DNA of 64,000 nt from Parasphingopyxis lamellibrachiae (GTDB taxonomy: Bacteria; Pseudomonadota; Alphaproteobacteria; Sphingomonadales; Sphingomonadaceae), in the NCBI RefSeq assembly GCF_003385775.1, contig NZ_QRDP01000004.1, forward strand, positions 1,535,763 to 1,599,762. The letters are read 5' to 3'. The notes beneath the pieces were generated by a model that was given only the letters and a program-made list of their open reading frames with translations, was not told where the DNA came from and did not search any database. How positions within the stretch are numbered: position 1 is the stretch's first letter; each line of letters opens with the position of its first letter. This document shows, in pieces, positions 58,581 through 62,449 of the stretch. A program made the position numbers and the translations under genes.

Positions 58581-58739
58581 CTATCCACATTTGGCCATTT
58601 TCTTGTCCAGACATCGCTTCAGCTGAATGCCGATGCGATGCCCGAATAAGTTCTGGTGATTGGTTCCCTGGCCGGAGCTGCCGCGATCAGAGTTGGAGTC
58701 GCTATTACTATCCGTGACGCCCCTGCTACCGAGGATGCT
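58581..58739 (-). other. Open out-of-frame tail after the repeat lipoprotein (probable frameshifted C-terminus)
   Basis: Skipping one base at 58740 joins the lipoprotein to 52 more codons ending TAG at 58581. The tail reads SILGSRGVTDSNSDSNSDRG at its start, echoing the GVTDSDTGS repeat, and ends LDKKMAKCG. Suggests a single-base insertion (or sequencing error) created the current stop. Confidence 0.5.
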
Positions 58740-59457
58740 ACCTGCCGCGTCCACGGCCTACCAGATCGGCATAGCTACCGGTATCGCTGTCGGTAACGCC
58801 GCCCCGACCGCCACCACGTCCACGGCCTACCGGATCGGCATAGCTACCGGTATCGCTGTCGGTAATGCCGCCACGACCGCCGCCGCGTCCACGGCCCACC
58901 GGATCGGCATAGCTACCAGTATCGCTATCGGTAATGCCGCCACGACCGCCGCCGCGTCCACGGCCTACTGGATCCGCATAGTTGCCGGTATCGCTGTCGG
59001 TAATGCCGCTGCGACCGCCGCCACGGCCACGGCCAACCGGGTCGGCATAGTTGCCGGTGTCGCTGTCGGTGATGCCGCTCCGGCCGCCGCCACGGCCACG
59101 GCCTACCGGATCGGCATAGTTGCCGGTGTCGCTGTCGGTAATGCCGCTCCGGCCGCCGCCACGGCCACGGCCTACCGGATCGGCATAGTTGCCGGTGTCG
59201 CTATCGGTAATGCCACTGCGACCGCCGCCGCGTCCGCGGCCAACCGGGTCGGCATAGTTGCCGGTATCGCTGTCGGTAATGCCACTGCGACCGCCGCCGC
59301 GTCCACCGCCTATCGGATCGGCGTACCTGCCGGCGTCGCGGTCGGTGACCTGGTATCCTCGCGGATGGGCGCATCCTGCCACAGCCCCCAATGCGCCTAC
59401 ACCAACTGCGGCGCCGACCCGTCTCAAAAACAATCGGCGATCGAGTTTCTTACTCAT
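58738..59457 (-). CDS. Tat-exported lipoprotein made of nine 23-residue DxDxGxYADP repeats
   Basis: 239 aa. N-terminus MSKKLDRRLFLRRVGAAVGV carries a twin-arginine motif, and GAVAGC is a lipobox, so a Tat lipoprotein. The rest is one degenerate and eight near-identical repeats of GITDSDTGNYADPV plus an Arg/Gly-rich GRGRGGGRS spacer. DSDTGNYAD fits the DxDxGxxxD layout of calcium-binding loops, so Ca binding is possible. I start at ATG 59457 (GGGGAGGG ribosome-binding site). No family recognised. The 23 x 3 = 69-nt periodicity also leaves the plus strand open, which is a shadow. Confidence 0.78.
   Translation of the reverse strand: MSKKLDRRLFLRRVGAAVGVGALGAVAGCAHPRGYQVTDRDAGRYADPIGGGRGGGRSGITDSDTGNYADPVGRGRGGGRSGITDSDTGNYADPVGRGRGGGRSGITDSDTGNYADPVGRGRGGGRSGITDSDTGNYADPVGRGRGGGRSGITDSDTGNYADPVGRGRGGGRGGITDSDTGSYADPVGRGRGGGRGGITDSDTGSYADPVGRGRGGGRGGVTDSDTGSYADLVGRGRGR
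58741..59343. repeat. Tandem 69-bp repeat, about 8.7 copies
   Basis: Units start every 69 bp from 58792 (GGTAACGCC or GGTAATGCC), exactly in frame for the minus-strand protein. Central units are more alike than edge units, as expected from slippage or recombination. Confidence 0.92.
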
Positions 59458-59619
59458 CAAGCCCTCCCCAAAATGGAGTTACGCGCGCCCTGCCATTGGG
59501 TGTAATGATCGTACATGAACGTGTCAAAAACACTATCTAAATGATAACAGATCGCATTTCTGCGTCTTTCTCTGTGCCGGCGTTATTTTGGGAAGCGGAA
59601 CGTCCGCAATGGATCGATA

Positions 59620-59637
59620 GCGGACATTCAAACTGAG
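59620..59637. repeat. Right arm of the 18-bp inverted repeat
   Basis: GCGGACATTCAAACTGAG, matching 58532-58549 in inverse. It also forms, with GTCCGC at 59602-59607, a local GTCCGC...GCGGAC palindrome. Confidence 0.7.
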
Positions 59638-59661
59638 TCACTGGCCTCCACCTCACACCTC

Positions 59662-59690
59662 CTGACAAACCCCAAAATTTTCGCTATACT
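59662..59690 (+). promoter_or_regulatory. Promoter of the hppD leader
   Basis: -35 CTGACA (59662-59667), 17-nt spacer, -10 TATACT (59685-59690). Predicted start at 59697-59698, on the micro-ORF ATG itself. Confidence 0.75.
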
Positions 59691-59697
59691 GCGCGTC

Positions 59698-59766
59698 ATG
59701 AACCGCATTCTCTATTCCATTGCCTATTGGACGGTCCATCGGCTGAGCCGCTCGCTCGCGAGCTAG
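59698..59766 (+). CDS. 22-codon leaderless micro-ORF upstream of hppD (possible leader peptide)
   Basis: Encodes MNRILYSIAYWTVHRLSRSL plus AS, then TAG. Two Tyr and one Trp codon in 22. The ATG coincides with the predicted transcription start, so it would be translated without a leader. Three hairpins follow before hppD, the geometry of a peptide-controlled leader. No homologue recognised. Confidence 0.5.
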   Translation: MNRILYSIAYWTVHRLSRSLAS

Positions 59767-59830
59767 CTCCGGCGCGCGCCTCTGCGCGCACTCCCACGCC
59801 AGCGGGCGAGACGCCCGGAAAAGGCTGGCG
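59750..59830 (+). promoter_or_regulatory. Three successive hairpins in the hppD 5' leader
   Basis: Hairpin A: GCTCG/CGAGC (59750-59763), overlapping the micro-ORF end. Hairpin B: GCGCGC/GCGCGC (59772-59777, 59784-59789). Hairpin C: CGCCAGC/GCTGGCG (59797-59803, 59824-59830) enclosing GGGCG-AGA-CGCCC. They lie between the micro-ORF and hppD; no T-run follows. Confidence 0.6.
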
Positions 59831-59866
59831 ATATGCACCTCCGATCGCTTTTACAGGAATAGTTTT

Positions 59867-60940
59867 ATGACCGAGACACCCGAAAACCTTATGGGCCTTA
59901 ATGGCTTCGAATTTGTCGAATTCACCGGCCCCGACCCCGATGCGCTGGCCGATCTCTTCACCCGGATGGGCTTCACCCATATTGGCAATCACCGCAGCAA
60001 GAACGTTCGCCGCTATACGCAGGGCGACATCAACTTCATCCTCAATATGGAGCCGGACGGGCAGGCTGCGAAGTTCCGCGAGGAGCGCGGTCCTTCCGCC
60101 AACGCGATGGCCTTCCGCGTCGCCGATGCGCACAAGGCGCTCGAACTCGCCGTCGAACGCGGCGCAACGCCGGTCACCGGCAAGGTCGGCCCGATGGAGC
60201 TCAACATCCCGGCGATCGAGGGCATTGGCGGGGCCAACCTTTATCTGGTCGACAAGCCCGGTGCGGCGACCATCTATGATATCGATTTCGAGCCGGTCGA
60301 AGGCGCGGTGGCGGAAGCGAACAGCGTCGGTCTGCACACGCTCGATCATCTGACGCACAATCTCAAGCGCGGACAGATGGATGTCTGGTCCGAATATTAT
60401 GAGCGCATCTTCAATTTTCGCGAAATCCGCTATTTCGACATCGAAGGCGCGCAGACCGGCCTCTTCAGCCGCGCGATGACCGCGCCTGACGACAAGATCC
60501 GAATTCCTTTGAACGAAAGCCAGGACGAACATTCGCAGATTGAGGAATTCATCCGCGACTATAAGGGCGAAGGTATCCAGCATATCGCACTTTCGACTGA
60601 CGATATCTTCGGCACCGTCGATGCCTTGCGCGAGCGCGGCGTCCGCTTCCAGGATACGCCCGACACCTATTACGACCTGCTCGACGAACGCCTTCCCGGC
60701 CATGGCCATGACGTGGAAGCGATGCGCAAACGCAAGATCCTGATCGATGGCGCGCCGGAAACCGGCGGCGGTCTGCTCTTGCAGATCTTCACCGAGAATA
60801 TGGTGGGGCCGATCTTCTTCGAGATCATCCAGCGCAAGGGCAATGAAGGCTTTGGCGAGGGCAATTTCAAGGCACTGTTCGAGAGCATCGAGCTCGACCA
60901 GATCAATCGCGGCGTGATTCCGGCGAAAGAGGAAGCGTAA
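59867..60940 (+). CDS. hppD: 4-Hydroxyphenylpyruvate dioxygenase
   Basis: 357 aa. Fe(II) enzyme converting 4-hydroxyphenylpyruvate to homogentisate. Ligands: His in LHTLDHLTHN (about 161), His in IQHIALSTDD (about 240), Glu in GPIFFEIIQRKGNEGFGEG (about 320). The C-terminal FKALFESIELDQINRG is typical. ATG 59867 has AGGA 8-9 nt before it. hmgA follows after 216 nt of hairpin repeats. Confidence 0.97.
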   Translation: MTETPENLMGLNGFEFVEFTGPDPDALADLFTRMGFTHIGNHRSKNVRRYTQGDINFILNMEPDGQAAKFREERGPSANAMAFRVADAHKALELAVERGATPVTGKVGPMELNIPAIEGIGGANLYLVDKPGAATIYDIDFEPVEGAVAEANSVGLHTLDHLTHNLKRGQMDVWSEYYERIFNFREIRYFDIEGAQTGLFSRAMTAPDDKIRIPLNESQDEHSQIEEFIRDYKGEGIQHIALSTDDIFGTVDALRERGVRFQDTPDTYYDLLDERLPGHGHDVEAMRKRKILIDGAPETGGGLLLQIFTENMVGPIFFEIIQRKGNEGFGEGNFKALFESIELDQINRGVIPAKEEA

Positions 60941-61156: not shown

Positions 61157-62449
61157 ATGACAGACTTCAAATACCAATCCGGCTTCGGCAATGAGTTCGC
61201 GACCGAGGCTGTCGCGGGCGCATTGCCCGAGGGCCGCAACAGCCCGCAACGCCCTGCTTTCGGCCTTTATGCCGAACAGCTCTCCGGCACGGCCTTCACC
61301 GTGCCGCGTGACCGCAATCTCAGGAGCTGGCTCTACCGGATGCGGCCGAGCGCCATGCATGATCGCTTCGAACCCTATCGCGGCGGAGAACGGATCGAGA
61401 CCGCGCCGATATCGGGCGTGACCTTCGAACCCAACCGGCTGCGCTGGGATCCACTGCCGACGCCCGAGGCCGAGCTGGACTGGGTCGACGGGCTCGTCAC
61501 CTGGGCCGGGAATGGCGCGGCGGACAGCCAGGCCGGGATCGGCATTCATCTTTACGCGGCCAACCGGTCTATGGAGGGCCGCGCGTTCTTCAACGCCGAT
61601 GGAGAGATGCTGATCGTTCCACAAATGGGCGCTCTGCGGATCGTAACCGAAATGGGCGTGCTCGACGTCGCGCCAAACGAGATCGCCGTCATTCCGCGCG
61701 GCCTGAAATTCCGCGTGGATCTCACCGATCGCGAAGCGCGCGGCTATGTCTGCGAGAATTACGGTGCGCCGTTCCGCCTGCCCGATCTCGGGCCGATCGG
61801 CTCCAACGGTCTCGCCAATCCGCGCGATTTCCTCAGCCCTGTTGCGGCATTCGAGGATAGCGACGAACCCGTCGAACTGATCCAGAAATTCAGCGGCGGT
61901 CTATGGGTCACAACGCTCGATCATTCGCCGTTCGACGTGGTCGCCTGGCACGGCAATCTCGCGCCGGTGAAATACGATCTCGCCAATTTCAACACGATCG
62001 GCTCGATCAGCTTCGATCATCCCGATCCGTCGATCTTCACGGTGCTGACATCGCCTTCGGCAAGCCCCGGCACCGCCAATTGCGATTTCGTGATCTTCCC
62101 GCCGCGCTGGCTGGTCGGCGAAGACACGTTCCGCCCGCCCTGGTTCCACCGCAATATCATGAGCGAGTTCATGGGGCTCGTTCATGGCGAATATGACGCC
62201 AAGGCCGGCGGCTTCGCTCCGGGCGGCGCGTCACTGCACAATTGCATGAGCGCGCACGGGCCGGACAAAACCTCGACCGAAAACGCGATGGTCACCGACC
62301 TGAAACCGCAAAAGGTAGACGATACCATGGCCTTCATGTTCGAAAGTTGCCTGCCGATCCGGCCGACCCGCTTCGCCATGGACACATCCCTGCTGCAGAC
62401 AGGCTATGACGAGTGCTGGGCTGGATTCGACAAGGCGAAGCTGCCTTAG
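61157..62449 (+). CDS. hmgA: Homogentisate 1,2-dioxygenase
   Basis: 430 aa. Opens homogentisate to maleylacetoacetate with Fe(II). Hallmarks: [13 protein letters not shown] at the N-terminus, [30 protein letters not shown] (His and Glu ligands) and [16 protein letters not shown] (third His). ATG 61157 with GGAGA upstream; the frame before it reads through the repeat array and is not coding. Product goes (via an isomerase not seen here) to FahA at 12-13 kb. Confidence 0.97.

Follow-up and report, generated by a model that had tools for sequence, protein, structure and literature searches.

A conserved micro-ORF before hppD and hmgA in Parasphingopyxis, a candidate nascent-peptide switch for tyrosine breakdown

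What is a 22-codon open reading frame doing between a promoter and the tyrosine breakdown genes hppD and hmgA? The locus lies in a stretch of 64,000 nucleotides (here, the window) of the 2.95 Mb genome of Parasphingopyxis lamellibrachiae, and the closest relatives of its hppD are found in Parasphingopyxis, in the Sphingomonadales. There are few known cases of a natural nascent peptide that senses a small metabolite in the service of a breakdown pathway. If the reading that we favor for this micro-ORF is true, it adds tyrosine breakdown and leaderless messages to the range of such peptides, and the locus offers, for comparative work, an instance of a 22-residue peptide that has apparently taken the place of a DNA-binding regulator.

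The promoter and the micro-ORF

The features of the region, all on the plus strand of the window, are

59662-59667, plus strand: -35 element CTGACA (CTGACAA is identical in 9/9 leaders)
59685-59690, plus strand: -10 element TATACT, ending 7 nt 5′ of the ATG (6-7 nt in 9/9 leaders)
59698-59766, plus strand: micro-ORF, predicted leaderless, 22 codons, MNRILYSIAYWTVHRLSRSLAS and a stop, conserved in nine genomes of the same genus
59855-59862, plus strand: hppD Shine-Dalgarno region, AGGAATAG
59867-60940, plus strand: hppD, 4-hydroxyphenylpyruvate dioxygenase (TIGR01263, E-value 3e-121)
61157-62449, plus strand: hmgA, homogentisate 1,2-dioxygenase (TIGR01015, E-value 2e-208)

The initial annotation had described a promoter, CTGACA-17-TATACT, reading into a 22-codon frame with two Tyr codons and one Trp, and both are there. 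The two elements (59662-59690), separated by 17 nt, are the sole sigma-70-like site in 59300-60200, where 0.2 would be expected, and they are kept in all nine leaders; the frame, with its two Tyr and one Trp, has its ATG at 59698. No Shine-Dalgarno sequence precedes this ATG, either in the window or in any of the nine leaders. Thus, if the micro-ORF is translated, it is translated as a leaderless message, and the geometry of the promoter in the nine genomes would place the start of transcription at or adjacent to the ATG. The micro-ORF stands 100 nt 5′ of hppD and hmgA, which share a strand and are probably one transcript. The recurrence of this architecture in nine genomes is far beyond chance, and the micro-ORF is real.

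Selection on the peptide and RNA structure of the leader

When the nine peptides are aligned on their stop codons, A-[YW]-W-T-[VML]-H-R-L-S-R-S-L is constant and the N-terminal half is free, varying both in sequence and in length (22 or 25 residues). The conserved part consists of Trp11 and the residues after it, a mixed motif and not a repeat of one codon, and its distance to the stop is fixed. A fixed distance to the stop despite a free N-terminus is what we expect for a peptide read near the peptidyl-transferase center.

59725-59757, plus strand: conserved core [YW]WT[VML]HRLSRSL, codons 10-20, in which HRLSRSL has synonymous changes only

Counting distinct codons against the commonest codon, and not events on a tree, the HRLSRSL codons of the nine leaders have 7 synonymous and 0 amino-acid changes, versus 5 synonymous and 47 amino-acid changes in the nine codons 5′ of the Trp, which argues for selection on the C-terminal half of the peptide. 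For HRLSRSL, the binomial P relative to random point changes (expected synonymous share 0.30) is 2e-4, an approximate value given this way of counting. That the ORF arose by chance, or was inherited from a recent common ancestor and has no function, would fit the restriction to a single genus, but the N-terminal codons and the spacer have strongly diverged and the C-terminal peptide has not, and we regard this explanation as very improbable.

The conservation in relatives that had been named as a check is therefore found for the micro-ORF, which is selected as a peptide, but not for its Tyr codons. Tyr6 is Pro in 3 of the 9 peptides, Tyr10 is Trp in 2, and one peptide lacks Tyr altogether. A peptide-sensing leader for tyrosine catabolism had also been proposed; a regulatory leader peptide is still the best reading, one that sits only before hppD, while the sensing of tyrosine through Tyr codons is not supported, and we reject it.

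A rival reading is classical codon-counting attenuation, in which a shortage of charged Tyr-, Trp- or His-tRNA makes the ribosome stall at the respective codons and the RNA folds switch, as in trpL. It would account for an aromatic pair (Y/W-W) at a fixed position, which in two species is a pair of adjacent Trp, and a leaderless trpL is known in Sinorhizobium (PMC7298713). The trpL/peTrpL system of Alphaproteobacteria resembles our locus in having a leaderless small ORF at the mRNA 5′ end (predicted here) with aromatic codons. It differs in that the micro-ORF has no run of Trp codons (one or two Trp), no trpE and no terminator, and in that the pathway is one of breakdown, not synthesis. Starvation logic fits biosynthesis, the core has just one or two aromatic codons and no conserved Tyr codon, and conservation continues to the end of HRLSRSL, a stretch for which codon counting has no use. 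An intrinsic terminator is absent from the window leader and from five of the six other leaders scanned, the exception being one weak match in locus L074, and we reject it. All this makes codon counting an unlikely explanation.

Could the leader act through its RNA structure instead? The elements that can be drawn are

59712-59718, plus strand: CUAUUCC, complement of GGAAUAG, which lies at the ribosome site of hppD (confined to the MNR-type group of five species; not above shuffles)
59742-59773, plus strand: hairpin A, spanning the 3′ end of the micro-ORF and its stop (similar outer stem in the rest of the MNR-type group, altered or absent elsewhere)
59774-59789, plus strand: hairpin B, G+C-rich, directly after the stop (most leaders have a hairpin near this position, with weak statistical support)
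59797-59830, plus strand: hairpin C (the layout recurs, the sequence does not; no U tract in the window)

Three stable hairpins had been said to follow the micro-ORF. Three can indeed be drawn, but the first overlaps the end of the ORF, the hairpins are poorly conserved, and their stability is unremarkable: the whole leader, at -67 kcal/mol versus -59 for its shuffles (z -1.9), is barely more stable than expected, and the spacer on its own is no different from its shuffles (z -0.26). Hairpin B, with single-sequence shuffle fractions of 0.02-0.81, was rejected as a strong signal. The leaders yielded no conserved switchable RNA structure, no well-supported alternative fold and no rut site; an excess of C over G in the leader is compatible with Rho but is no evidence for it. 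An Rfam match to RsmY is far below threshold and on the opposite strand, and was discarded.

One way in which RNA could matter is that the conservation belongs to an RNA element, be it hairpin A or the target of a regulator, and the peptide is incidental. The invariance of the CGG and AGC codons and the similarity of hairpin A in five species would agree with that. Yet four species have lost the partner of the stem that lies outside the ORF and have kept the peptide, and the changes in HRLSRSL being synonymous without exception (7/7) speaks against it as well; we think it decidedly unlikely.

Another is translational attenuation as in ermC, where CUAUUCC in the 5′ part of the ORF would hide the GGAAUAG of the hppD site and a ribosome on the ORF would free it. 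As in ermC-type leaders, there is an upstream ORF and a possible masking of the downstream ribosome site. Both halves of the 7-nt complement are kept in the MNR-type group of five species, and the minimum-energy fold of the window includes the pairing. However, its energy in that group is not above shuffles (shuffle fraction 0.09-0.27), it is poor in genomes G399, G365 and G403, and it has no covariation, so that a genus-wide anti-Shine-Dalgarno pairing is rejected. This reading, which differs from the ermC type also in having no link to an antibiotic, leaves the conserved peptide end unexplained, and we give it little credence.

MarR-type control and the proposed switch

Elsewhere in the order, the operon before which the micro-ORF sits often carries the marks of a protein regulator. 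The palindrome GTWWCANNTGWWAC is present before hppD (at least 11 of 12 positions) in 54 of 73 other sphingomonads, compared with 2 of 1000 shuffled regions and 0 of the 6 micro-ORF loci tested. It occurs about 30-100 nt 5′ of hppD (for example, in L007, L032 and L064), and in many of these loci a MarR-type gene adjoins hppD. The position suggests that MarR binds the palindrome, and a MarR-type operator seems to be the usual means by which tyrosine breakdown is controlled in the order. The neighboring genomes G406 (beside hppD) and G411 have a MarR orthologue with 50-58% identity. None was found in the nine micro-ORF genomes, two of which are 66% and 83% complete; the best matches there are weak, with at most 36% identity. 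The sole perfect palindrome in the genome of the window, GTTTCACGTGAAAC (C1:2109407-2109420, L154), stands beside gidB and parA, and we presume that it is a parS partition site.

With operator and MarR orthologue both missing, the leader is the only conserved element that we found at this promoter, and since MarR is missing where the leader is present, regulator loss and leader presence go together. The MarR-type control of other sphingomonads, as deduced from operator and neighboring gene, acts on the same operon and presumably to the same purpose, but it uses a protein regulator and a DNA operator that the micro-ORF genomes do not have. The best reading of these sequence comparisons is that the micro-ORF leader stands in for MarR control of hppD-hmgA.

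How might it do so? Four observations together point towards cis action by the nascent peptide: its C-terminal end is conserved and keeps its distance to the stop, its N-terminus is free, it is strictly linked to a breakdown operon, and the protein regulator has been lost. Going by sequence comparison, we give about an even chance to the micro-ORF being a regulatory upstream ORF that works as a cis-acting nascent-peptide switch for hppD-hmgA. More tentatively, and with well under even confidence, we propose that it encodes a novel metabolite-sensing arrest peptide on a leaderless mRNA, which senses tyrosine or a breakdown product and has replaced the MarR regulator of hppD-hmgA.

The alternative that the peptide acts in trans, as a small protein whose gene is placed before hppD, draws on the conserved and basic C-terminal half, and trans roles have been reported for peTrpL (PMC7298713). 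The fixed distance between motif and stop and the strict linkage to hppD in 9/9 genomes favor cis, and an action in trans seems unlikely to us.

For the cis-acting switch, we picture the following. Ribosomes would start on the bare 5′ end of the message, at the ATG of the micro-ORF, and the C-terminal half of the peptide, [YW]WT.HRLSRSL, would be read within the exit tunnel. When a compound of the tyrosine pathway is abundant (our guess is tyrosine, 4-hydroxyphenylpyruvate or homogentisate), the nascent chain would hold the ribosome at or just before the stop. The held ribosome would sit over the last part of the ORF and the base of the G+C-rich hairpin that follows, so that the folding of the 79-112 nt spacer, or access of Rho to it, might change and hppD-hmgA be expressed; in the absence of the compound, the ribosome would leave and expression would stay low.

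The nearest known system in logic is TnaC, in which a free amino acid halts the ribosome on the stop codon and the arrest blocks Rho. Both are short upstream ORFs before a breakdown operon for an aromatic amino acid, both have their conserved residues in the C-terminal half, and in both a Trp stands 11-12 residues ahead of the final one (PMC10941005). The conserved residues of TnaC are W12, D16, I19 and P24 (PMC10941005), and its Trp and Pro24 are essential. Aligned on the Trp, positions +4, +7 and +12 of the window peptide are Arg, Arg and the stop, that is, D16, I19 and P24 are absent; in addition, the final residue varies among the nine peptides (S, C, R, L or D) and the micro-ORF is predicted to be leaderless. 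Thus the peptide is not a TnaC, to which it is unrelated in sequence, and given its variable last residue, a stall would lie before the stop or be independent of that residue.

Distribution of the leader and neighboring sequences

Searching hppD-relative loci and whole genomes, we found the micro-ORF before hppD in 9 of the 10 genomes assigned to Parasphingopyxis, a sample of one genus in which several of the nine are metagenome bins. In all nine, it occurs before hppD only. The tenth genome, G400, has an hppD 80% identical to that of the window, with a different upstream region and no micro-ORF. No profile in Pfam, NCBIfam or Rfam matches the micro-ORF or its leader, and we found no leader peptide for hppD described in the open-licence literature.

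When 399 genomes, a sample of the order, were scanned with a DNA pattern that would miss strongly recoded members, matches came only from three genomes of Parasphingopyxis. A profile scan of 385 genomes, an incomplete sample of the class, matched only the genome of the window. Candidates for additional copies of the peptide, whether in the same genome or in others, were rejected: the remaining profile matches inspected lie inside other genes or do not have the architecture, and look like chance.

We also scanned hppD upstream regions blindly for leaderless upstream ORFs (a promoter score, an ATG 5-8 nt past the -10, and 8-60 codons). The scan recovered the micro-ORF in L001-L005, missed it in L074, where the -10 is poor, and returned one 8-codon ORF elsewhere. 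In locus L028, which has no MarR-type operator, TATATC is followed after 6 nt by an ATG and a 9-codon ORF, MHPSALHGV, about 20-60 nt 5′ of hppD; it is unrelated in sequence to the micro-ORF and possibly due to chance.

In the hppD tree, the nine micro-ORF genomes do not form one clade, but the data do not reject a single one (p-AU 0.20), and L074 sits on a long branch. The hppD of L074, from the metagenome bin G403, groups with Stakelama, even though that genome is assigned to Parasphingopyxis and carries the micro-ORF.

The micro-ORF region is intergenic, and the gene on its other side, on the minus strand (58738-59460), encodes a 240-residue repeat protein for which neither Pfam nor NCBIfam has a match. 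The protein has a twin-arginine or lipoprotein-like start, and its gene includes 8.7 copies of a 69-bp tandem repeat (58744-59346 of the window), with repeat type GRGRGGGRSGITDSDTGNYADPV.
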